Below, in pieces: positions 3,250 to 36,952 of a stretch of DNA of 64,000 bases. The notes beneath the pieces are model-generated. The model searched no databases, was not told where the DNA came from, and saw only the letters and a program-made list of their open reading frames with translations. Numbering within the stretch: position 1 is the first letter of the stretch; the number at the start of each line of letters is the position of its first letter. The translations under genes were made by a program, and so were the position numbers. Source of the stretch: Vitis vinifera (taxonomy: Eukaryota > Streptophyta > Magnoliopsida > Vitales > Vitaceae); the NCBI RefSeq assembly GCF_030704535.1, contig NC_081806.1, positions 2,739,001 through 2,803,000 on the forward strand, in the 5' to 3' direction.

Positions 3250-4561
3250 GTATTTTTCACTGGTCAATTTCATATTAAAGTCCATATTTCCCTTCTCTCT
3301 TCTTCTTCTTCGTCTCCTTCTTCTTCGTCCATTGTTTTTCATCTTCTCTTTTCTTTCTCTTTCTTCCTCACTGCAAAAAATGGAAGAAATGACCATGTGG
3401 GTCGATCAAGAGACACAGTTTCTTTGTTGATTCAGCTGAATTCTGGAGTTTTTCATGGTTTTCCACAAGTTTGAATTCTGGGTTTCCTGTTTCTGCTCAA
3501 TTTGAGAAAAGTGAGGTCAACAGCAGAGCTGGAAACTGGGTATTTACTTTAAGGCTCTTTTTTCCTTTTTTGTTGTTGTTTTTGTTTTTGCTTTTGTTTT
3601 TCTCCTTTTCATTTTTGTTGTTTCTTCTGACCAAAAAGTGAAAATCTCAACTCCAAGGTAGCCAATTGTTTAATCAGGCCTAGTGAAAATTGTCTATTTA
3701 TAGGATGCTGAAGACTGAAAATCTTAACATTCTAAATTTTTATTTTCCTTTCTTATGCTCCTGCATTTTCCCAACAACCAAACAGAGGCTCCCAACAGTT
3801 CCATGACTCTGGAATTCTTTCATTGACTGTATCTGTTCTTGTGTGTGGTTTGCCACTGTCAAACCTTATTTCTGGGTGCAATTTTCTCCATCTTTATCAC
3901 AAATAGATCTCAAGATCACAAGACAAGATCTCAGAATCTCTTACCAACCAGTCAGAGATATGATTCGATTTTAGGATTGTTACAGCTTCAGACTCCATGT
4001 TGGAGAAACTATCACTTTTCCATGGGATAGTTTCTGGGCTCTTCACATTTTAATTTTATGGTATTCTTTATATCTTTTTATATAATTATTGGTGTTCTCA
4101 GGTTTTGATGCAGCCACATTTATCAGGTTGTTTTCAGTGAAAACTAGGCATCATAGAAAAGAGATCACAGAAACATCATAGACTCTGAGAATTACCAGAA
4201 TATTTGTATATGGGGTTTGGTTAATATGTTCGATTTTCGGCCACCTAATTCCTTGCAGATGTGAGACATGTGAACAAACACACTGATGGTTGGAATTCCT
4301 CGGTTGTTTCAAATGAAAATGATCTGATCTAAGTCTCATTGTTATACCATAGATGTGATCTTAGTACAGACCTAAGCAAATTAGTCTAATTTTTCAGTCA
4401 GTTATGTAGTGAATGATAGTATGTAGAGGGGATCTTGAAATGTATTGATCATTTGTTTGCTTCCTTAAGAGGCTTTCTTGTTCTGTGATACGAGTCACTA
4501 TTTGTATCGGGTCCTGATGCTGTTATGTGGTTAAGTTTGAGCTTTGAATTTCCTTTTTCAG
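3250..4561 (+). other. Probable 5' leader and first intron(s) of the DUF4378 gene
   Basis: A pyrimidine-rich stretch (TTCTTCTT repeats near 3300-3375) followed by a moderately GC sequence looks like a plant 5' untranslated exon. Possible donor sites are at about 3538 (GG/GTATTT) and 3657 (AAG/GTAGCC). The coding start was not fixed. One option is ATG 4108 in a tiny exon 4102-4126, because it ends in the codon phase required by the exon at 4562. Another is the in-frame ATG at 4847. The ATG at 3379 opens only a 16-codon frame and could be an upstream ORF. Confidence 0.35.
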
Positions 4562-7500
4562 GCAGCGGATTGGGCAGCAACCTTGATGAAGATTATCAAC
4601 ATGTAGTGGTAAGTATGAGCAACCTACTGTCATGGTCGGATTTAATGTATATTAGACGCTTGTTGCTCTTCTTGTTCTGTTTTATGTTTGATATTTCCTT
4701 TAATATCTATCATCTGGTTAGAAACAAAATTCTAGATGCTGGTCCTTTCTCTAGAATAAGTAGTTTGTGCCATAGATGCTGATGGTAAAAACTTTTAGGT
4801 TGGGGTGAACAAAACTTCGACAGTTGATTCTGATAAGGCGAGCAAGATGTCCTCCGGGCAGTGCATAAAGAAGCAGATCGCCCCTATCAAAGTGGGACAC
4901 CTACAACCAGAATTTGTTGGTCTGTCGTCAAAAAGTCAAAAAAAGGCTAGCAAGGATCATCCTAGAGCTCGTGATATACCCGTTCATGGTTGGAAAAATT
5001 TAGCCGGCTCGAGACATGAGAGACTTACTCAACCAAATAGAGGTCATGGTGTTGGCAATAAGAAAAGTGTTACTGGTTCAAAGCACGACCAATTTAATGA
5101 GGTCAACCTCCTACTAGCTCAGAAAAGTGAAGCAGCTGAGGCCTTTGTGAATCAGAAGTTATTTGTTGGTAAATATCTTAGCAAAGATGGGGCAAATCAC
5201 CGGTCCAAACAATTCTTGGATGCTTTAGAGGTTTTAAATTCAAACAAGGAATTATTTCTGAAGCTCCTTGAAGATCCGAATTCTCTGTTAGTGAAACACA
5301 TCCAAGACTTACGAGATTCTCAGACAGGGAAAGAACCAGCTAAATCACTCTCAGGAGACAGAAGGTCAGAATGTGGACTTAGTAATGCAAAGCAGCAGGA
5401 AGGAGCTGAGCATACTCGAAAGTCACAGAAGAAAAATGGGCACAACCTTTTCTGGAAAAAGATCAAGTGGGATAGATACTCATCAAAAGGGAGTAGCAAT
5501 CATCAACCTTCACATACAATAGAAGTTTCCAAACCATGCCTAACAAGAGCACAGAATTTTGAAAGCAGAACAAGACTGTTTCCCTCCCAGCAACATCAAT
5601 ACGGCTTGAGAGATGGTTCGCAGAATGGTAGAAGTAGATCGGAACATGCTATGGTGGAAAACAGAAAAGAGCAGCATTGTAATCCAATGGATGATGCTTT
5701 GTGCAAACCTCCTTATTATGACCTCCGAGGCTCAGAGTTTGTTGGAAAATGGATTGGTGGGAAGATTGTTGGAAGAAGTTCATCGAGTTCAGCCAAACTG
5801 GACATTGGAAATACTGCCAAATCTTCCACCGATATCAAGAGGAGGAAGAACATAGGCAAGCCTAAGGATTTTGGGCTGAGCATTCAACATGAAACTGGTT
5901 CAACCAGTGGAAGCGGTTCTAAAAGTTTGAAAATATCAGCTGCCAAGTACTCAAAGCAAAAAGAATCTAGCATATACGCTGAGGCTAAAAGACATCTGTC
6001 TGAGATGTTAAGCAATGAAGATAAGGATGAGTTCTTTTCCACCAAACAAGTCCTGGGACCTTTGGGGACGATACTCTCTTTGCCTGGATATGACCTATCT
6101 TCTAAGCTCAGTCCTCGGTGGGAAACAGAACATGGTTTTGTGACTGCAGAGATGCGATTTTCCCCTTACAGCAATTTTCAAGCAGACCTTCAGAACAGGC
6201 AGTTGCTTCAAAAAGAAAAGAACAAAACTAGCCACCCAAGTCCATTGGGGCAGAATCCAGAGGATCCACCATGTGCTAATATCAAGAAACCCATTGATCA
6301 GTTGCAAGTTCCTGACTCAAAGACAAATTTTCCACATCTTCTTTCTGATGCCAAACTCCATGAAAGCATCTGTTCCATTAGAGACGATAGTAGTTGGGAA
6401 GGTAAAGATCTTTAGTTTTATAATGCTCCTTACTGCCATGTTTTATGTATATCATGACTTGATCACTCCACTGAACTTCTGCAGGCGATGTGAATATTTT
6501 AAAAACACATGATACAATACATTTAGGAGAAAGTAATTGTTTGGAACGGCCCTTGGGACTGAGTAGCAGACCTGAAACCAGATCTAAACGATGCACTGAT
6601 GCCACCAGTGTGCGTGAGGAAAATGAGTATCTGGAGTTCTCTGGACCGGTAAAAATTGCTTTATTCTTTAAGATCTTTTGTCCTTTTTTTTTTTTCTTAT
6701 TATTGTCAGTGTTCAATTGCTCTCTCACATGGCCTCTGCCTTTCATTTGCTCTTTCCAGGATGTACTTTTAGAGGATCAATCGCAAACATTTTCATTAGG
6801 TGTTCCTCCATCGAGCCCTTCTTCAAGCGTCCAGGAAACAGAAGATTTGGAAGGAATTAAACATAGAGCAGATCAGACCAGTCCAGTATCTGTCCTGGAG
6901 CCATTTCCCATGGAAGATGTCACTAGCCCCTCAAGCATCATTTCTAAACATGGTAAGATTTTGTGTCTGGAATTTATAATTAGTCGTTTTGTTGTCTTTC
7001 GATCTGAAATTGAATTATCCCACTTGAACATCTACAGATGACCTGCCAATGCAACTAGAAATTACTTTTGATAAACATTGTTCTGCTTCGAGGATGTGTC
7101 CTTTGGATCCTGCAGTCAATTCAAACACCTGTATGGAAGACCATCAATTTGCTGATAAGTATGTCAGAGAAGTGATACAAGCTTATGGCTTGAACTGTGA
7201 TGAACTCTTGGCAGATAGGCAGTCACCTATGGAGTACTGGAATGACCCTAAGCTCCTCTTTGATTGCATTAACGAAGTTGTTCTAGAGGTATACAACCGT
7301 TATTTTAGACACCTCCCTTGGCTATCATCTATCAAACCAAAGATCCAGCCAGTCCCATTAACGGAGAGAGACGTGGTTCGCGAAATAATGGAAGGTGTTG
7401 ATTTGCGCCTTCTTCAGCCACGGGAAGTCCAGCTCCAAAGAGATGTGAAAAAATCTGGAGCATGGCTTGATATTCGAACCGATGTTGAAGATATTGTTAT

Positions 7501-7564: not shown

Positions 7565-8833
7565 TTTATCAGCAGAAGTTGCTTTCTTGTGCTGTTGTCT
7601 AAATTGGAAACGGCATAAATCTGAAGAGAGGCAACTTGAACAAGGAAACCCGGATTAAGATCATCTTTGTGATTCAGCCAGCATCTTCAGAGGCATTGTA
7701 TGATCACATGCTTAAGACATTTTGATTTGAATCTGGGTTGAGATTTCCTTGGTTTAGAGTAGGTTCATGGGGTCCAAGCTCCATGTATTATAGATTTAAG
7801 TGAAAGCTGCAGCCACTGTAAAATATTAGGATTCTGGTGGTTTCATAGGACTTTCTCCATTTTGTTCTGTTCTTTGTCATGATGAATGTGAACTGATAAC
7901 CCTTTAGTAATTGTTTTTGTAATACTGATCAGAGATGATATAGATTTGCTCAGATTCTTGCAGTTGGTAATGAAATCTGTCATTCTACTGTGTGAAGAAA
8001 GTTGTCTCTTCACCATGTCATTCCACAATTTTCCATGTCTAGGTCTGGACTGTAGCATCTGCAATTCCTTAGATTTCAACTGGTACGTACAACTTGGTCC
8101 GGTTGGATTGGGTTGACATTTAAGATGAGTTCTCATTTGTCAAGAACGCGACTGATGTTACAAGTAGTGTATACTAAACCAACCAAATAACTTAATTTAA
8201 GTTATTAAATAAATTAAATAAAATATTAACCTAAGATATGAATTAAATAATAAGTAAAATAATTAAATTATTTTTAAATTTATCTTAATTATAATTTATA
8301 AGAATAAATATATAAATTTTATGATTTAAAATTAGTTTTAAGTTAATTTTATCAAATAATCTTAATATTTAAAGTTATAATTAAATAATAAGTTTTAAGA
8401 TAACAATATAAGTATAATTTAATTTAAAATCAACTTAAATAATTAAATAATTAAATAATAAATATTAAGTTTTATCAAATACCTGAAATCTACTTTTCTT
8501 AATTCTAATTGAAAATTATAATAAAATATGCCTACATGGAGCTAAGAATAAAATTGGGTTTGATCAAGTTAAAGGTAAGTTTTAACCAAATATGGAATAT
8601 AATTATCCATCTCATTTCTTATATCCTTTCTATATATAGGGTATACTATTTCAAATAAAAATATAAAATACACATATCCCATATATATTATAAAAAAATT
8701 TATTGAATTTTTATTTTTTATATTACTTATTTTGTAAAATAAATTTTTTATTATAAAAGTTAAATCATTGTTTATAAAAATTTTAAAAATATTTATGAAA
8801 TATATTGTAAAGTAATATTAATTATGTGTATTA

Positions 8834-8883: not shown

Positions 8884-9989
8884 TTTATATATTGAATAAC
8901 ATAATATAATTTTTTTATAATAACTTAATATACAAATTTTTTATTTATAAAATTTAAATATTTTAATCATGAATATTATTAAACATATAAAAATTTTCTT
9001 ATTTTTTTAATAGAAAATATTATAATGTAATATAATTTATATTTTAAATATTAAAAAAACAACACATATTCCATTCTTTTTTTTTATTTATATTACAAAC
9101 TAAATGTAAACATAACTTAAAATACTCTTATGATATTATATTCATTAGATTTAATATTCTATAATATCATATCCCATTATTATATGATATACATTTTTTA
9201 TTAAATGAAATATAGAGTTTGCTTAACAATAATTGTAAGAAGTGTTTTTAGTTTAACACATTTTAAAATTTTTGAAATTTTGAATTTTTTTTTGAAAAAA
9301 TATTTAAAGTGCGTTTTGGAGTGATTATAAAAAATGTTTTTAACATAAATGATAAAATTAAAAGTGTTTTTCTAAATAAGTGTTTCATATAATCATTGTC
9401 AAACGGGTTCTTAATAAGTGATTTTTCTAAAAACATTTCAAATAAAAATGTTGTCAAAAACATTTATATAGAACTCATTTGATAATGATTTTATAATATA
9501 TTTTTAAAATGTGTTTAGTAGTGATTTTAATAAGTGTTTCTAAAATATGTAATACTTGAAACTTTTCATCATTCAAATATTAAAAATACTAAAAACATTT
9601 TCTATAATCATTGCTAAACACTATTTCTAACATTTAAAAGATAAAAAATTTAAATGTTATAAATATTCAAAACACTTCATAAAATCATTACCAAATGTAT
9701 TATATTATAGGATATATATATATATATATCATATCCTATCATTTCAACGAAGTATAACCCTATGGATTTATTCAGAAGTGTTTTGAAAATAGTTTTAAAT
9801 TACAATTTTTAAATTTGACTTTATTTGTAATAATTTTTTAGAATAAAAATACATATAGGAAGATTGTCAACATGTTTTCTTGTTTTTCAAATATTTATTA
9901 AAAATATATTTTATTTATAATATTTTATCTATAAAAAACTTGTGTTTGAAAACAATTAATAACTATAGTTAATTTGATATTTTTTAGTT

Positions 9990-9992
9990 TTC

Positions 9993-10029
<37 letters not shown>

Positions 10030-10030
10030 G

Positions 10031-10092
<62 letters not shown>
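9990..10092. repeat. (TAA)n and (TA)n microsatellites at the copia 5' flank
   Basis: A run of about twelve AAT/TAA units (about 9992-10029) is followed after ten bases by a pure TA run reaching 10091. It directly abuts the left LTR of the copia element. The element therefore inserted into, or next to, a TA microsatellite, which blurs the target-site duplication. Confidence 0.9.
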
Positions 10093-10095
<3 letters not shown>

Positions 10096-10318
10096 TGAGA
10101 TATTAGGAATGTTTAAATATTATGAAAGTTGAGATATTAAGAATATTGAGATATTAGGAAAGTTGAGATATTAAGATATTAGTTGTTATTTCCTTATATC
10201 ATTCTTTCCTTGTATCATTCATTCTCATTCTTAGAATGGTGATTACCCTCTATATATTCTCTGTACATGAACGAATGAAAGTATGAATGGAAAAAACTAC
10301 CATTTATCAATTTGAAGA
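10093..10318 (+). repeat. 5' LTR of copia element
   Basis: It starts TGTTGAGATATTAGG and matches 14011-14236 with 9 mismatches. It contains three imperfect GAGATATTAGGAA-type subrepeats near its start and a TATATATTCTCTGTAC sequence that may include the promoter. The end shared with the 3' copy is GAAGA rather than the usual CA, and the primer-binding site begins at the next base. It lacks a 54-bp block present at the left end of the 3' LTR. Confidence 0.88.
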
Positions 10319-10330
10319 TGGTATTAGAAC
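10319..10330 (+). other. Primer-binding site of copia element (degenerate)
   Basis: TGGTATTAGAAC follows the 5' LTR directly. The usual plant copia site complementary to the initiator methionine tRNA 3' end is TGGTATCAGAGC. Two positions differ, so priming would probably be weakened. Confidence 0.75.
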
Positions 10331-10331
10331 C

Positions 10332-13300
10332 ATGGAACTGAAATCCTGGATATTTTGTCGCTATGGTAGTCCGACAGCGATCATCCATCCTAAGACAAGC
10401 CCTTCAAATGCACTCACTGCAATAAGATTGATCCCACTAATCTGGATATCCCACAATTTCAAAGCAACGACTCTTGGTATGACCAGGAAAACAATGAGGA
10501 ACCGAAGGTTTGAACCATGGACCTTTAGATCATGTTTAGGCTATCAACACTTTGTTATTAATGATAATAATCGTGATCAACGAAAGAAGGATTCCAAAAA
10601 AACCTCGATTGCAACTGTTGCCGAAATAAAAACAGAAGCTAATGTTGCTGAGAAAACCTCTACATTGGTAGCTGCTACAGATCATGGTGGTAGATTTTTA
10701 AATACTTTTACACCTGTTATTAATAGTGCATGGATAATTGATTCTGGTGCTACAGATCATATGACTTTTGATTCTAAACAGGTTTCACCTCTTAGACCTT
10801 CCTCACAAAAAAATGTTTCCACAGCCAATGGTAACACAACCCCAGTCATTGGGGAAGGATCCTTAACTCTTACTGATACTTTGAATTTGGATTCTGTCTT
10901 AGTTGTTTCATCTTTAGATTACAATCTTTTGTCAGTTTCTCAAATCACCGCAACCTTATCTTGTATTGTCATTTTTTTGCCTGAATTTTGTGTGATTAAG
11001 GACATTCAAACAAGACAGACGATTGGTTGTGGTATTAAGCGGGGAAAACTCTATTACTTGGACTTGCAGTCAAAGGATTCAAATAAGTTGCAACAAGCCT
11101 TGATGGCAGATGGATCTAAGGGGGAGAAAAAAAAGTCTGAAATTTGGTTGTGGCATCGACGTCTGGGACATGCTTCCTTTGGTTATTTAAAAAAATTGTT
11201 TCCTAATTTGTTTGCAAAGAGTGATATTTCTAGTTTCCGTTGTGATATTTGTGAATTGGCTAAAAGCCATCGTGTTTCGTTTTCGTTAATTTTGAACAAA
11301 AGTCTATTTCCTTTTATGATTATACATTCTGATGTTTGGGGCCCATCCAAAGTCCCAACTTTGAGTGGCTCACGTTGGTTTGTTACTTTTATTGATGATT
11401 GTACCAGAATGATATGGTTATGCTTGATGAAGACCAAAGATGAAGTGAACTTGTTGTTTCAAAATTTTTATAAAATGATTGAAACTCAGTACAATGCAAA
11501 GGTTCGGGTTCTACGTAGTGATAATGGTGAAGAATATCAAAGTTCTGATCTTCAAAAGTATTTGGAAGGACATGACATCATTTATCAGACTACTTGTTCC
11601 AATACACCCCAACAAAATGGAGTCGCTAAACGGAAAAATCGGCACTTGTTAGAGGTTGTTCATGCTTCCTTGATAGCAGCAAAAACACCAATATCTTATT
11701 GGGGAGAAGCAATCACATCTGTCGCATACTTGATCAATCGGGTACCTTCCAGCTCAATTAACTTCCAAACACCTCTCCAAGCTCTTACTAATGTCATAGT
11801 TGCCCCAACTGTCCCAAATCTACCTCCTCGTGTTTTTGGTTGTGTGGCGTTTGTGCATCTACACAAACACCAACGCACCAAATTAACTTCCCATGCATTG
11901 CAATGTGTGTTTGTTGGATATGCATTGCACAAAAATGGATATCGATGTTACCATCTTCCAACTCGACAAATGTATATTACAATGGATGTGGTGTTTCATG
12001 AAGATTCGATGTATTTTTCATCTGAGTCTGAACTTCAGGGGGAGTACCATAAGGAAATTTAGACTCTCGATTATGATTATCATATCTTTAAGGAGAATGA
12101 ATCTGGACAATCTGAACTAATGAACCAAGAAGCGGGTGAGTTGGATATGAGTGGTCAACAATTTGGGTCCGAAGATGTCTTCACTAAAATACCAAACCAA
12201 TCGTCGTCTGTTGAAGGTGTTCTTAATTTGGAACCTGATCCATTCATGAAACGGTTACCACACCGTCATAATAGAGGTATTCCTAAACCCACATATGAAC
12301 CTAAATTGTTTACCAAAGTCAAATATCCCATGAGCAATTATGTGTCTAACCATCGTTTGTCTGAATCAAATAAGTCATTTGTAAATCAATTATCTACTGT
12401 AGCTATTCTTAACAGTGTGCAGGAAGCCTTAGCTGATCCAAGGTGGAAAGCAACCATGAATGAAAAGATGAAATCATTGCAGAAGAATGAAACATGGGAA
12501 CTCGTAGAATGTCCACCAGGAAAGAAGCCAGTTGGGTGTCGTTGGATCTATATTGTGAAGTACAAGGCAGATGGTAGTATTGAACGATTTAAAGCAAGAC
12601 TGGTAGCAAAATGGTACACTCAAACTTATGGAATTGACTACACAAAGACATTTGCACCTGTAGCTAAGATCAACATAGTTCGAGTATTATTGTCTTTAGC
12701 TGCAAACCTAGATTGGCCATTACAACAGTTTGATGTGAAAAATGCCTTTCTGCATGGCGAGTTATCTGAAGAAGTATATATGGATCTTCCACCAGGATGC
12801 ATGGTGTCAGAAAAGCAATGTCAGAAGGTGTGCAAATTGAAGAAGTCATTGTATGGGTTGAAGCAATCCCCGAGAGCATGGTTTGGAAGGTTCACAAAGT
12901 CAATGAGAGTTTTTGGCTATCGTCAAAGTAATTCAGATCATACTTTGTTCCTGAAAAAGCAACATGGTAAGATTACCGCACTCATCGTATATGTGGATGA
13001 CATGGTAGTTACAGGAAATGATCCCGAAGAAAAAAAAGCTCTGCAAAATTATCTATCTAGAGAATTCGAAATGAAAGATCTAGGTCTTCTGAAATACTTT
13101 ATTGGGATTGAAGTTTCTCGATCAAGTGAAGGAATTTTTCTGTCTCAAAGAAAGTATGCCTTAGATCTTTTACAGGAGACTGGAATGTCGGGATGTCAAC
13201 CTATTAATACACCAATAGAAGAAGGTTTGAAATTGTGTGTTGAGCCTAATCAAGTATCAACCGATAAGGGAAGATACCAGAGACTTGTGGGGAGATTAAT

Positions 13301-13949
13301 GTACTTAGCTCATACAAGACCAGATCTTGCTTATGCATTGAGTGTAGTGAGTCAATACATGCATAATCCTGGAGAGCAACATATGAATGCAGTTATGCGT
13401 ATTTTGAGGTATTTGAAGAATGCTTCTGGGAAGGGAATTTTGTTCGCTAAAAATGTTAATCATTAGAGTATAGAAGTATATACTGATGCTGATTGGGCCG
13501 GTGCAGTGGATGATAGACGATCTACATCTAGTTACTTTATCTTTGTAGGTGGTAGTCTTGTGACATGGAAAAGTAAGAAGCAGAATGTCGTCGCTCGTTC
13601 AAGTGCAGAAGTAGAATTTAGAGGTATGGCTTTAGGACTTTGTGAGGCATTATGGCTAAGACTTCTCTTACAGGATTTAGGTTACCTATCTAGGCAACCA
13701 ATCCGATTGTCTTGTGACAATAAAGCCGCATGTGACATTGCTCATAATCCAGTACAACATGATCGTACAAAGCATGTCGAGGTGGATAGATTCTTCATTA
13801 AGGAAAAATTGGATGATAAGATTGTGGAATTGCCTAAGATTCGATCAGAAGATCAATTGGCCGATATCCTCACCAAAGCTGTCTCAAGTCAAGTGTTCTC
13901 AAAATTTTTAGACAAGTTGGGCATGTGTGACATCTATGCACCAACTTGA
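10332..13949 (+). pseudogene. Copia gag-pol polyprotein with two in-frame stops
   Basis: One reading frame runs from ATG 10332, just after the primer site, to TGA 13947-13949. It is broken by TAG at 12060-12062 and TAG at 13464-13466. Order of parts: a short unrecognisable N-terminal stretch in place of gag (no zinc knuckle seen); aspartic protease with DSGATDH (about 10740); integrase zinc-binding region with WHRRLGH (about 11151) and CDIC (about 11240); DDE core with D in HSDVWG, D in RSDNGE and Lys codon AAA at 11628-11630 where the glutamate belongs; reverse transcriptase from about 12490 with YVDD near 12990; and RNase H with TDADWAG and the C-terminal DRTKHVEVDRFF segment. The breaks occur at the integrase/RT linker and at the start of RNase H. 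No intact enzyme set can be made, so it is annotated as a pseudogene. Confidence 0.92.
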
Positions 13950-13956
13950 GGGGGAG
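13948..13956 (+). other. Polypurine tract of copia element
   Basis: GAGGGGGAG lies immediately before the right LTR (TGTTGAG at 13957). Its position and composition fit the plus-strand primer. It overlaps the stop codon of the polyprotein frame, an arrangement common in copia elements. Confidence 0.88.
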
Positions 13957-14236
13957 TGTTGAGATATTAGGAATGCTTTCTGTATATCATTCTTTCCTTA
14001 TATTATTTAGTGTTGAGATATTAGGAATGTTTAAATATTAGGAAAGTTGAAATATTAAGAATATTGAGATATTAGGAAAGTTGAGATATTAAGATATTAG
14101 TTGTTATTTCCTTATATCATTCTTTCCTTGTATCATTCCTTTCCATTTTTAGAATGGTGATTACCCTCTATATATTCTCTGTACATAAACGAATGAAATT
14201 ATGAATGGAAAAAACTATCATTTATCAATTTGAAGA
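13957..14236 (+). repeat. 3' LTR of copia element, with extra 54-bp head
   Basis: The segment 14011-14236 aligns to the 5' LTR. Before it, 13957-14010 repeats the LTR start (TGTTGAGATATTAGGAATG), continues differently, and then the LTR start appears again at 14011. Since the polypurine tract abuts 13957, the 280-bp form may be the original LTR. In that case the left LTR lost 54 bp, possibly during turnover of the adjoining TA microsatellite. Confidence 0.82.
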
Positions 14237-22575: not shown

Positions 22576-25500
22576 TCAACACTTTGGGACAACTCTCTGA
22601 AGTGCTTGTCTGATTGTTTCTGCTGATGCAAATGATGATCCCTTAAACTGCAAGTCAGAAACTACCCTTAGAATTGAGTTTTAGCATTTCTAGAAGTTAA
22701 TAAATGATCATGTTCATGCTAGGTGCGCCGTAGATGATAGTTTACCTGGAAAATAAGGTGATATGGTTATGGTGATCTTGAGTTCATACCTTTGATTTAA
22801 TGGTCAGAGAAAGAATTCCATCAACGCTGGCTGACTGAACTGACTGAGAATCTAAATGGAGATTGCTTACAGCATCCATGATCTCAAGCAACAAGCACTC
22901 TCTCCATGGACACCTCAGTTCGATTAGAATATCCTTCTCGTTCATATTGACTGTTATATTTTCAGCTGAATCATCTTTCAGTAAAACCCGGTTGGAATCA
23001 GGCTCCATTTCATCAATGTCACAAGCCTTCCTCTTGTTCAACAAAGGTTTCTTGCCATTTCCAACTCTGTCGTTGCCATAGTTATCAGATGTCCTCTCTG
23101 CAGTATCTGGGGTTCTCCTGCTTGTTCTTGCCTCTATTTCTGTTGACTCCTTGCTAGATTCCAACTCTTCAACTCTTCTTTTGAGCTCTTTCAGGTATTC
23201 TATGGTGTCATCAAGTACAGACACTTTGTTGACCTGCACAAACAAAGCCATTGAGTAGTGTCTTTAAACAGAGATTGACATGGGGGAATAGAGTTTCTAA
23301 CTACCTGGTTAATAGAAGGAACAAGTGATCTGAGAACCGAGAACCTTTCATTTATTTTTTCCCTCCGTTTCCTCTCGGACAACACATGGTTCAGAGTGAT
23401 TTCGTCAGCCTCTGGTCTCCAAATTTCATCGTTATCTCCATTATTATCCCGGGAGCTCATTAAGCAACCACCATGCATTTGAGCAACTTCAAACAGCACC
23501 TTCTTCAATAATTTTTGTTGGGTTCCAGTGTTCAGCTTCTGAGTACCCATCAATCCTCTTTTCTTCCAACTAACGAAGCTTGACTCCTTATTGGAATTTC
23601 GAAAGCATGGTCCCAAAATCAACTGGTTGGAGCTCAAAAGGGATGAAAGAATACACTGATAATGAAGATCATCCCGAAGATCCAATGAGGTTAATTTGGT
23701 GTTATTGCATTCCTGAAGGTCTACCAGGCAATGATCATTAACCTTTTCACCCTTTGAAATAGGAACAACCTTTTCAGGATTCATGATGGTCTGAGATATG
23801 CAGTCACTAGAGTTCATTGAGTTATGGACACAGTTACTGAATTCATCCTCCAAGAGTTGCCAGCTTTGTACCTGAGAAGCTCCCCCACCATTTAAGCAGT
23901 CAACCATAATCGATTCCTCTCCCAATTGATTCAGCTCAAACCCATCTGAGCTGTTATTTGGAGAACCTACTTCTAAAACTGCTGGATTAAGGTTGGTGTC
24001 GAGAAAATTATGATCAAGCTCTGCAGAAGCAGGGTCTTTGTCTTCTCTTATCTTTCTGGAATTAGATATCCTGGACAGCATGGGGTATGGAATCTCCAGA
24101 AAAGAAGTTTTGATGTGTTGGATGAGACTCGGGTCCTCCAAAACCTTCAAAGCAAATTATGAATAGGAATGTGAGTTGCATAGGAAATGGTACATGCTAA
24201 TACAAATTTCTAAATGATTAAAACTCAGAGGCAAAATCTAACACAAAAACGTTACCATTTCAGTCGCACCCAGCTCTATCACACCTCCTAAATATGGAAA
24301 GCATACCACAGTCTGCAACTCAAAAAACAGGAGATGTTATCAATATCCAGAAAGCCAATGGTGTTGTGTGTTTGTAGTAGGAGGAAGGGTGTTGTTGACA
24401 ATATCTAAAAACCCAGGGAAATTTTTGGAACAAATATCGCATTATATAGAAAGATCACTACATTGAATACTCATGTGACCAAGCCGGTCTAAAGAAACAT
24501 GAGGATCAGGGCGAAAGAGAAACCATGACAATACCTGGATAGATGCACTCTGAGGAAGACGAATCAGTACAAGCCCCGGTCATTGAACGGAAACAAACAG
24601 AAAAGAAAAGTTCAGTTTGGTCATTTTAAGCATGCCAGCAAATCCCAGAAATTAAGATTCACTTAGAACTAAATCAGATTAGGGATGAGAAACAACAACC
24701 TACCTTTGCTAGCAGAGAGCGGCTGAACACTTTGCTCTCTGCATAAGGAGCATTGCATAGCCAGATAGGCTGGCCACTAGCCAATGTTCTTCCGGGCAAT
24801 CTGAGGAACAATTTAGAGGAATATTAACAATGATAAAATTTTCTTTCTAAATCATTGTGATGAACATTATGAAGAATAACCCAGCACAACAACTGTCTGC
24901 AGTAGAACTCAGGATTCATGACTGGTAAAATTAGGTTCCAATCCAACAAAAAGCAATGTGGTAGTTTGGCAGATCTGAGGTCCAGTGGTCCCAAAATGGA
25001 AGACGAGAATTTATGAACAGAGGCCAAGATAGATATAGAAGACAAAGGAGTTATCAACTTGCAGTCAATAAATGTTAACTCAAATATTCTTCTCAACAAT
25101 GACAATTCACACAAAACCTCATCACAATGCAGAATGATTTTTTATTCTTTTTCTGCTGAATTTTCCTTGTTTATTTGTGAAAATGATTGCAGAGCCTCTT
25201 CATAATGTGATGGGGTACTGTGTGATTGATCACTGCAGTCCAGAAAGATGTTAAAGCCCCTCACTGGAGAGGTATAAACCTTTGATTTTGAACACCTTGA
25301 AGATAAGCCAAAAAGGCTCAAGTTTAGAGAAGCAGTGGTGCTAGAATTTACCCTTGGCCTATATCGAACACGAAGGACATGCAAACCAAGTAATACCACT
25401 CTGCATCTGTGAGGTCTTCAGGTGATAATGCTGCAGAATGCCTTCTGGGTTGTGGGTTGGATTCACCTATTGAAAGGGACTCGTAAAGTTCTCTCAATTG

Positions 25501-26390
25501 CTCACTTCTCTGCAACCCCATTTGGTCAGCATTGAACTCCACAGCCTGAACGGTTTTTCTTGTTTTGATGTCTCCATTGTAGTACCCATCTCCCCACTCC
25601 AGTACCCTAAGGAATTCACATTTGCAATAAATGAGAACAGGAAAAGAAATATATGCATGTTAGTACTATAACCATGAGGGGCTGAATATAACAATATATT
25701 TTTAAGAAGTCCTTAGAAAGAAACCGAAATAAATCATTGCAACAACAAAGCAGCATTAACATCTTCCAGAATGCTACAAAGAAGAAATGACCTGTAAATC
25801 TTTGTCTGGGCAGTATGCCAAGATGGGAAACAATGTAGGAAAATGATGGCTACCATGACACTAAATTGTATTCCCTTCAGAAATCAGCAGATCAAACAAA
25901 TGATAGATTAAAAGGAGTGGCGGATTTCATCAGTTTCAACTGTACAGGAACTACATTATACCTCACTTTACATGACAGATATACCATACTTAAATCCTGA
26001 GGCTGATATCAAGAGGAAAAGAGGATAAAGCTATTTGATTTATTTATTCATTGTGGGCGAAATGTAATCAGCTCCCCATTTTCTAAAGATTTCCCATAAA
26101 CTTGTGCATACACAATGCAGAAGATGAAGACAAAATAATTATATACAAAAATTCTAGGTGGAAATTCAGAAGGCATATCATACGGAGCAAGAAAGCAGGT
26201 TTAAGGGAAAATAAAAATAAAAAATAACTAGGAACAGAAAGAAAGAGAAGAGATGGGAAGCTGAATACCCTGGTTGTCTAGTTGAAATTGACCAGAAGAT
26301 TGCATAGCTCCATTGAATGTTTCTAACAGCAAGGGCAAGCTGGTTCCTTAGGTTCTCTGGCACTCCTTGATTTTGGGGTTCAGTATCCAT
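22576..26390 (-). CDS. MYCA1: bHLH transcription factor, GL3/EGL3/JAF13 type
   Basis: Coding exons from 5' to 3' on the minus strand are 26390-26269, 25606-25352, 24800-24704, 24549-24535, 24312-24256, 24144-23305, 23233-22790 and 22647-22576. All are in phase and give 633 residues. The N-terminal MYB-interacting region begins [24 protein letters not shown], shortened here to its key residues [11 protein letters not shown] and WSYAIFW. It contains [11 protein letters not shown] and the [14 protein letters not shown] exon. An acidic middle follows, then a bHLH at about 434-487 with the basic stretch [16 protein letters not shown] (His/Glu/Arg E-box contacts). The C-terminal ACT-like dimerisation domain ends RVVPKC. 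The IIIf subgroup partners R2R3-MYB and WD40 proteins to control anthocyanin and proanthocyanidin genes, trichomes or root hairs. The sequence agrees with what I recall of grape MYCA1, so the symbol is offered with moderate certainty; family assignment is firm. Confidence 0.93.
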
Positions 26391-32045: not shown

Positions 32046-32054
32046 AAAAAAATT
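32046..32054. repeat. Left target-site duplication of fold-back element
   Basis: AAAAAAATT is repeated exactly at 33875-33883, outside the other end of the inverted repeat. A 9-bp duplication is the norm for Mutator-like elements. Confidence 0.75.
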
Positions 32055-32163
32055 GAGCTTTGACCCAAAATAATGCTTTTTAAAAAAAAATTCCAAAAAA
32101 TAAAGTGGTTTTGAAAATAATGCCCGATCTAATGCGTTTGTGCCACATAAGCCGCCACATCAT

Positions 32164-32357
32164 AAAACCGTAGTTGGTGACTACGGTTTTATTTTTCTAA
32201 AGTGTTTAGAAACCGTAGTTACCAACCACGGTTTTAACTTTTAAGTTTAAAGCCGTAGTTGGTGACTACGGCTTTGACTTTTTTTTAAAATGGTCAAAGC
32301 CGCAGTTGGTGACTACGGCTTTGACTGGTCAAAGCCGTAGTCACCAACTGCGGTTTT
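32164..32357. repeat. Five palindromic CCGTAGTTGGTGACTACGG-type modules, left arm
   Basis: Modules lie at about 32164-32190, 32210-32235, 32249-32275, 32295-32323 and 32329-32357. Each is built on AAAGCCGTAG / CTACGGCTTT around a short TTGGTGA or TTACCAA core, so each forms its own stem-loop. The last two are also inverted relative to each other. Mirror copies lie at 33570-33767 in the right arm. Confidence 0.88.
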
Positions 32358-33569
32358 AACTTTATATATATTTATATATAACTTTAATTTTTTTAATAAA
32401 AATATTATATTATTTTGATTTTAAATATACTTATTTCATTATTTTAAAAATTATAATATACGAAATTAAATAATTGATATTTTTAATTTGATATAAAAAT
32501 ATATTTTTGAATTTTATTAAAATAATAGGCACTATATTTAATATAAATATAATTAATTAATTAAAATAAAATATAATAAATTATATTTATTTAAAATAAA
32601 TAAATTATAAATGCCTATTTAGAAAAATAAAAAAGTAATATAAATTATTATATTAATTAATAATTTTTTATATATTATATATAAGTGGTATATAATACCT
32701 CTCACACACACACATATAAAAGTCTAATTTAAGTTTAAAATTTATCACATTTTTATTTAAATATATAAATAAATTTTATTAAAACATTTGACACTATATT
32801 TAATATAAATATAATTATTTAATTAAAATTAAATATAAATAAAATATAATAAATTATGTTTATTTAAAATAAATAAATTATAAATGCCTATTTGGAGAAA
32901 AAAATAATATAAATTATTATATTAATTAATAATTTTTTTATATATTTTATCGAGACCAGTTAGATGCACAGACCCATGACCATAATATATAAAAAAATTA
33001 TTAATTAATATAATAATTTATATTATTTTTTTCTCCAAATAGGCATTTATAATTTATTTATTTTAAATAAACATAATTTATTATAATTTATTTATATTTA
33101 ATTTTAATTAAATAATTATATTTATATTAAATGTAGTGTCAAATGTTTTAATAAAATTTATTTATATATTTAAATAAAAATGTGATAAATTTTAAACTTA
33201 AATTAGACTTTTATATGTGTGTGTGAGAGAGGTATTATATACCACTTATATATAATATATAAAAAATTATTAATTAATATAATAATTTATATTACTTTTT
33301 TATTTTTCTAAATAGGCATTTATAATTTATTTATTTTAAATAAATATAATTTATTATATTTTATTTTAATTAATTAATTATATTTATATTAAATATAGTG
33401 CCTATTATTTTAATAAAATTCAAAAATATATTTTTATATCAAATTAAAAATATCAATTATTTAATTTCGTATATTATAATTTTAAAATAATGAAATAAGT
33501 ATATTTAAAATCAAAATAATATAATATTTTTATTAAAAAAATTAAAGTTATATATAAATATATATAAAG

Positions 33570-33767
33570 TTAAAACCGCAGTTGGTGACTACGGCTTTGA
33601 CCAGTCAAAGCCGTAGTCACCAACTGCGGCTTTGACCATTTTAAAAAAAAGTCAAAGCCGTAGTCACCAACTACGGTTTTAAACTTAAAAGTTAAAACCG
33701 TGGTTGGTAACTACGGTTTCTAAACACTTTAGAAAAATAAAACCGTAGTCACCAACTACGGTTTTAT
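33570..33767. repeat. Mirror set of five palindromic modules, right arm
   Basis: This is the reverse-complement counterpart of 32164-32357, with the same order read from the outside inward and only scattered substitutions. Confidence 0.85.
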
Positions 33768-33874
33768 GACGTGGCGGCTTATGTGGCACAGACGCATTAG
33801 ATCGGGCATTATTTTCATAACCACTTTATTTTTTGGAATTTTTTTTTAAAAAGCATTATTTTGGGTCAAAGCTC

Positions 33875-33883
33875 AAAAAAATT
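33875..33883. repeat. Right target-site duplication of fold-back element
   Basis: An exact AAAAAAATT repeat of 32046-32054 directly outside the right terminus CAAAGCTC. Confidence 0.75.
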
Positions 33884-36288: not shown

Positions 36289-36576
36289 GACTATGTTTGG
36301 TTATTGGAAAGTACTAAAAAATGGAAATTCTTAAGAAAAATGATTTTATTATGCTTGGTTTCATAGTAGAAAATACAAAATAAAAAAAATAATAATTAAA
36401 CTTAATTAAAAACTTATATATTTTAAAATTAGGTAATTTTTATATAATGGAGAAAAATAAGTTAAATGAGTTTTTAAAAATATATAAAAATAATTTATTG
36501 ACTTTAATTCATTTTTTTATTTTACTTTTTTTTTTCTTCCACTTTTCTTCAAAATTTCTCGGAACCAAACATAACC
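36289..36576. mobile_element. Tourist-like MITE (copy A)
   Basis: This 288-bp element has the ends GACTATGTTTGG and CCAAACATAACC and a TAA duplication on each side (36286-36288 and 36577-36579). The interior is AT-rich and non-coding. Removing it rejoins the tandem-repeat phrase around CCCTAAAGTATTA. Confidence 0.78.
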
Positions 36577-36623: not shown

Positions 36624-36952
36624 GGTTATGTTTGGTTTCCAAAAAATTCAAGGGAAAATATGAGGAAAAAATATAGAGAGAAAAAACAGAAGGAAATAAA
36701 AGTAAAGAGAAATAAAAAATAATTTTAAAGTCAACAAATTATTTTTATATCATATTTTAAACTCATTTCACTTATTTAATTATTTTATACAAGGATTAAA
36801 TAATTTAAATATATATAAGTTTTCTACTAATTTTAATTATATTTGATTTTCTTTCATATTTTTCATAATAAAACAAAACATAAAAAAAATCATTTTCTGT
36901 AGTTTTTTTTTTTTTTCTCTTTCTTAGTACTTTCCAAGAACCAAACATAACT
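36624..36952. mobile_element. Tourist-like MITE (copy B)
   Basis: This 329-bp element has the ends GGTTATGTTTGG and CCAAACATAACT and a TTA duplication on each side (36621-36623 and 36953-36955). Its interior resembles the reverse complement of copy A, suggesting insertion in the opposite orientation 48 bp away. It interrupts the repeat phrase CATCAAGTTAG/GGTTTGAAAT. Confidence 0.78.

Follow-up and report, generated by a model that had tools for sequence, protein, structure and literature searches.

How does a grapevine genome come to carry a near-perfect palindrome with arms of about 890 bp, is this palindrome mobile, and why are its two arms so alike? We addressed these questions for an element at C2:2771055, which lies in a 64-kb stretch of Vitis vinifera DNA (64,000 nucleotides analysed as a whole, hereafter the window).

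Anatomy of the palindrome

Self-comparison identified the element as the longest inverted repeat of the 64-kb window, and the original prediction of a near-perfect fold-back with ~890-bp arms and a 9-bp target duplication proved exact, both in its coordinates and in its flanks (Table 1). As is typical of foldback elements, the arms are long, accounting for 1783 of the 1820 bp; they are 99% identical, with 7 mismatches and one 1-bp indel in a global alignment. The arms are also internally repetitive (hairpin cores and an internal duplication, Table 1), another trait of foldback elements. With up to 3 substitutions allowed, the hairpin core occurs 0 times in the 64-kb window outside the two arms, and it is found 3 times in the left 400 bp and 4 times in the right 602 bp of the parental element described below. 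The arms are A/T-rich except for roughly the outer 300 bp, where the hairpin cores sit. The element is non-coding, and a known structured RNA or tRNA is ruled out as a feature of the window by 0 Rfam matches at gathering score and 0 tRNAs in a bacterial-code scan. The next inverted repeat of the window (36316-36540 and 36692-36916; 225-nt arms, 73%, 151 nt apart) is unrelated to the element and presumably older.

Table 1. Features of the palindromic element and of the nearest recognised gene (positions in the window)
Feature	Position	Strand	Remarks
HLH exon	23200-24156	-	Pfam
bHLH-MYC_N exon	25348-25656	-	Pfam
Weaker bHLH-MYC_N exon	26178-26390	-	Pfam, just under cut-off
Left target-site duplication AAAAAAATT	32046-32054	.	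9 bp, exact
Whole non-autonomous foldback MULE	32055-33874	.	Termini GAGCTTTGACCC...GGGTCAAAGCTC
Left arm, 892 bp	32055-32946	+	Copied from the right end of the 11.5-kb parent MULE, 95%
Outer 227 bp of left arm	32055-32281	+	Common to both parent ends (true terminal inverted repeat, 92%)
Five palindromic hairpin cores CCGTAGTTGGTGACTACGG, left arm	32168-32353	.	Up to 3 substitutions
Partial internal duplication in left arm	32497-32946	+	About 32497-32680 vs 32759-32946, ~85%
Spacer, 37 bp	32947-32983	+	With 2 adjoining bases, parent 8094-8132 exactly, inside the PMD gene
Right arm, 891 bp	32984-33874	-	Right end of the parent again, inverted
Five hairpin cores, right arm	33576-33761	.	Up to 3 substitutions
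Right target-site duplication AAAAAAATT	33875-33883	.	9 bp, exact

Related copies and their target sites

A primer of the grape marker VVMD7 has 0 exact matches in the genome (495.6 Mb, 21 contigs) and one match with 1 mismatch, on C7, versus 0 for its control, in keeping with grapevine. We searched this genome with one arm and obtained at least 278 matches from the best 40 of 473 candidates; since only these best 40 were scored, and they are the 40 loci analysed here, all family counts are lower bounds. Both termini (up to 4 substitutions) are present in 32 of the 40 related loci. Left out of the two-ended counts are L038, L039, L041 and L052, which are ends of 11-12-kb elements, and L045, L050, L056 and L058, in which at least one terminus is missing within 4 substitutions. 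The 22-bp terminus itself (up to 3 mismatches) has 225 matches in the genome, as compared to 0 matches for the reversed 22-bp terminus used as a control.

Target duplications of MULEs are generally 9-11 bp long. Further copies with 9-bp duplications had been anticipated, and perfect duplications indeed flank 27 of the 32 two-ended copies (24 of 9 bp and 3 of 10 bp), versus 0 of 992 mismatched left-flank/right-flank cross pairs that match over 8, 9 or 10 bp; a perfect 9- or 10-bp duplication is absent from five copies (L034, L040, L042, L046 and L048). The A/T-rich duplication of the window element would not carry the case for transposition alone.

Using the joined flanks of 9 copies as queries (best 40 of 65 candidates scored), we were able to identify empty sites, spanned across the junction and with a single duplication, for two copies. 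L030 has empty sites at C10:20164724 (99%, whole 180-bp segment), C16:12833745 (99%, all except the first 6 bp) and C11:13302795 (95%), and L028 has one at C10:2568816 (99%, whole segment); a partial empty site of L026 is found at C19:1896726 (85%). For 6 of the 9 copies, including the window copy, only their own flanks and no empty site were found among the best 40 of 65 candidates, so the empty sites looked for exist for two of the nine copies tested and none was found for the window copy.

Long palindromes are generally known to be prone to misassembly, and the element might accordingly be taken for an assembly artefact or chimera (a false inverted duplication). We put the probability of this at practically nil: the arms differ at 7 sites and one indel, and the artefact is ruled out by the 37-bp spacer, which recurs without a single difference in L027, a copy on another contig, and in the parent, by the perfect target duplications across the family, and by the empty sites of the two other copies. 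Transposition, which had been argued for from the flanks of this single locus, is thus borne out by the family as a whole, and the window palindrome is a genuine mobile foldback MULE of the non-autonomous kind.

Some of the target sites have a history of their own. L028 (C10:2533440-2535027) is inserted 26 bp after a flanking ATG (by eye), and its left flank, with this ATG, has 14 related places on C16 (24.7-26.1 Mb), two of which start 12 bp after a related element (L049 at C16:25452304-25453975, and the terminus at C16:25564998-25565019); one gene family may have been hit near its start, or one insertion may have been duplicated with the cluster. A relative of the L026 site (C19:1946211-1947408) is split by about 1.04 kb at nearly the insertion point of L026, possibly by another insert at a paralogous site. 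Three identical variant termini at C5:2059654, 2167544 and 2275420, ~107.9 kb apart, suggest that a ~108-kb segment with a single element has been triplicated in tandem.

Parental MULE, founding junctions and arm history

At least four pairs of termini in the genome lie 10.9-11.9 kb apart (two on C7, and others on C9 and C10). The same 22-bp terminus is found at both ends of the two ~11-kb C7 elements, and with 1-2 differences in the C9 and C10 elements. All four of these ~11-12-kb elements contain the same MULE transposase gene, and it is thus with elements encoding a MURA-type transposase that the palindrome shares its termini, as expected of a MULE. We located this gene by reading the interior of one element and then searching the genome with that protein (a genome search with PF10551 gave no match inside the four 11-12-kb elements among the best 150 of 791 candidates). 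The match is full-length at C7:13504922 (0 internal stops), C7:23933469 (1 internal stop) and C10:9138832 (3 internal stops), and partial at C9:5371025 (residues 1-621, 2 internal stops). The element at C7:13501030-13512531 (11,502 bp, hereafter the parent) has its own perfect 9-bp duplication and a transposase frame at about 3893-6523 (876 residues from stop to stop, with the domains MULE, DBD_Tnp_Mut and SWIM), which is followed by a gene with a plant mobile domain (PMD) in pieces (the first strong, the middle one below the curated cut-off, the last scanned on the C10 copy). The window element therefore resembles MULEs (MuDR/Mu superfamily) both in its 9-bp duplications and in having a partner transposase with these domains.

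It is very improbable that the foldback is moved by a different transposase family and that the 11-12-kb elements are carriers merely sharing its ends. In favour of this reading, the genome searches scored the best candidates only; against it, the same MULE transposase gene is present in all four of the ~11-12-kb terminus pairs identified, and the 9-bp duplications are those given for grapevine MULEs in PMC2528002. We are confident that the palindrome is a non-autonomous foldback MULE that was born from a ~11-12-kb MULE with near-identical termini and is probably moved in trans by the transposase of the latter.

The two ends of the parent are alike over 227 bp only (92%), whereas the similarity of a window arm extends over 892 bp with the parent's right end (95%) and over the first 227 bp with the parent's left end. 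The window copy maps to parent 10643-11502 (arms) and 8094-8132 (filler), the latter being an exact 39-bp match to the spacer plus 2 bases. In L023, L024 and L032 the filler is 171 bp long and corresponds to parent 8264 to 8094 (98-99%), with junction microhomologies in L032 of 5 bp (arm/8264) and 3 bp (8094/arm). Read by eye, this filler runs from the end of one PMD exon through a GT...AG intron into the start of another exon, which makes DNA, and not spliced RNA, its template. Given the 892-bp right-end match versus the 227-bp left-end match, the spacer derived from the interior, and the microhomologies of the filler, the palindrome consists of one transposon end duplicated in inverted orientation, and it spread afterwards. 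It differs from long-TIR MULEs in that it is non-coding and in that its arms are an inverted duplication of one end, ~4 times longer than the 227-bp TIR of the parent. A Pack-MULE was rejected as well (the filler derives from the PMD gene of the parental transposon itself, and there is no captured host gene fragment). Gaps excluded, eight representative arms show 97-99% identity to the four parental right ends, so none of the four 11-12-kb elements is the exact source and the true parent may be lost or unsampled. In one older copy (L048), the outer 226 bp of the left arm match the left end of the parent best.

The filler has been trimmed variously, from 171 bp to short remnants, in L021, L022, L023, L024, L027, L028, L029 and L032-L037, and is absent in L025 and L026; deletions may be concentrated at the centre of the palindrome. 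The same trimmed spacer, 37 bp letter for letter, is present in the window copy and in L027, which is on another contig (C8). Other copies have other centres: L030 and L040 have a common junction from parent 9867 to 10936 with 6-bp microhomology, and the arms of L031 extend to about parent 10454, with a short repeated motif in the centre (by eye).

Diagnostic sites were compared among 32 arms of 16 copies of the young family A (L031 included; L030 and L040 kept apart). At two sites C is found in 32 and 31 of the 32 arms, and also in the parental element at C7:23930329, whereas all 4 arms of L030 and L040, and the other three parental elements, have T and G; L030 and L040 therefore come from a different parental haplotype. 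The third site is G in 29 of the 32 arms and A in both L031 arms and one L037 arm, as well as in L030, L040 and all four parental elements. L031 is unlikely to descend from the lineage of the window copy. Taken together, the breakpoints and haplotypes in these sequences point to two births at the least and probably to three, with the older family B in addition.

The junctions lead us to infer a repair route, by interrupted gap repair or template switching. DNA synthesis would first have copied the MULE end that is distant from the transposase gene. It would then have jumped, at short microhomologies, into a 171-bp stretch within the PMD gene and from there have returned to the first end, copying it once more but with reversed orientation. 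The product would consist of two head-to-head copies of a single end with a remnant of filler in between. Comparable scars are also expected from strand-switching during replication. As both outer ends of such a product are predicted to be accepted by the transposase, the palindrome could be excised, reinserted with a new 9-bp duplication and amplified, presumably mobilised in trans by the transposase of the parent. The window copy would be a later member of the lineage, with its filler trimmed to 39 bp.

We built a tree of 64 arms and the four parental ends (outer 560 bp, midpoint-rooted). Family A includes 18 copies (the window copy among them) with closely related arms; in the older family B, two distinct clades each contain one arm of all 13 copies; and L053 belongs to neither family. 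Six of the seven arm mismatches of the window copy are common, arm for arm, to its sister copy L027 on C8 (two of the six, 32138 and 32704, are also variable among other copies), and the seventh (32252/33677) is private to the window copy. Because they are common to a copy on another chromosome, the six mismatches predate the window insertion, and arm identity therefore dates the palindrome and not the insertion.

These data bear on the possibility that the arms are the ancestral TIRs of a long-TIR MULE, homogenised by gene conversion, or by repeated re-synthesis, between them. Consistent with it are the 99% identity of the arms, the arms of one copy being mutual nearest relatives in 6 of 32 copies (L022, L023, L031, L034, L035 and L053), and 4 of the 86 private alleles in the 18 family-A copies being found in both arms of a copy. 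However, the other 82 private alleles are found in one arm only, six of the seven window mismatches are held in common with L027, the arms of all family B copies are split between two clades, and the parent's own ends are alike over 227 bp and not 892. We consider this reading very improbable, and conversion as the main cause of arm identity is largely ruled out by the tree and the private alleles; because arms of one copy do pair together in some copies, conversion may act occasionally. The original prediction that such similar arms point to a recent insertion or to gene conversion between them is thus not supported in that form. The arms are mostly inherited as a unit, and the main reason for their likeness is the recent origin of the palindrome, through inverted duplication of one end of the parent. 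The 99% arm identity is that of a young palindrome, and the window insertion is younger still.

Predicted hairpin, known relatives and neighbouring sequences

Folded in silico, a single strand of the element reaches -1256 kcal/mol, with 887 of 891 predicted pairs formed arm to arm, so the very long hairpin originally proposed for a transcript through the element is supported as a prediction. Such a hairpin is expected because the sequence is a palindrome; it says nothing about transcription.

Foldback MULEs are not new: FARE of Arabidopsis is reportedly one such family. Tm1 of nematodes, as outlined in PMC3169594, is a Mutator/foldback family with duplications of 8-10 bp (mostly 9 bp) and composite, internally repetitive terminal inverted repeats, some members of which encode transposase. 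The grapevine elements are like Tm1 in their composite, internally repetitive arms and ~9-bp duplications, and unlike it in sequence and host, and in that the parent, the filler and the founding junctions are readable here. Tandem-TIR MULEs are discussed in parts of PMC3310237. Among grapevine elements, the MULE families Mutavine-1 to -18 are described in PMC2528002 with 9-nt duplications where found and, in several cases, sizes of about 10-11 kb; by description, which is the basis of the comparison, they agree with the elements studied here in both respects (9-nt duplications and ~10-11-kb sizes), and the words 'foldback' and 'hairpin' are absent from the main text of that paper. Among the matches listed for the open-licence literature (titles and beginnings of abstracts), we found no description of this foldback family.

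The closest parallel is Mu killer of maize. In the passages of PMC3440606 on its structure, both TIRs of Mu killer come from one end of MuDR, together with an inverted duplication of mudrA; the transposase-side end is duplicated with ~1.3 kb of mudrA, and this one locus silences MuDR. In the window element, too, both ends come from the same end of an autonomous element in inverted orientation, and a transcript of either could therefore be a hairpin. In contrast to Mu killer as so described, the duplicated end here is the one far from the transposase gene, the arms and filler lie outside the transposase frame of the parent, and the element is multi-copy with target duplications.

A silencing role is a testable idea. 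We think it rather doubtful, and state it as such, that this MULE lineage repeatedly (in at least two births) throws off one-end palindromes that multiply as mobile, multi-copy, Mu-killer-like hairpin loci, which, if inserted within or close to genes, could yield ~890-bp dsRNA, so that the transposon builds and disperses its own silencing trigger. If true, the trigger would be the transposon's own because the outer 227 bp of the dsRNA matches both ends of the parent, and hairpins that are transcribed would amount to naturally occurring, mobile versions of Mu killer. In most cases a foldback element is found with no trace of its origin. The kind of element is already known, and it is the completeness of its record that is unusual: a single genome contains a parent whose transposase frame is unbroken, founding junctions that preserve filler and microhomology, descendants in which the spacer has shrunk, and births that can be told apart by parental haplotype, which makes the interrupted-repair model of fold-back birth directly testable. 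The same record corrects a common shortcut, as arm identity need not date an insertion.

We note some other features of the window. Among 15 window frames scanned against Pfam, the nearest recognised gene is the minus-strand bHLH gene (from 26390), ~5.7 kb from the element. Host genes found within 4799-26390 include a DUF3741 protein, a class-I glutamine amidotransferase (which we take to be GMP-synthase-like), a 2OG-Fe(II) oxygenase, and this bHLH-MYC_N/HLH transcription factor (minus strand). A Ty1/copia-type retrotransposon is found at 10094-14144, with an integrase-side frame at 10287-12062 (Pfam) followed by reverse-transcriptase-like frames (by eye); two blocks of matching 34-bp tandem repeats (10094-10180 and 14012-14098) could belong to its pair of long terminal repeats.
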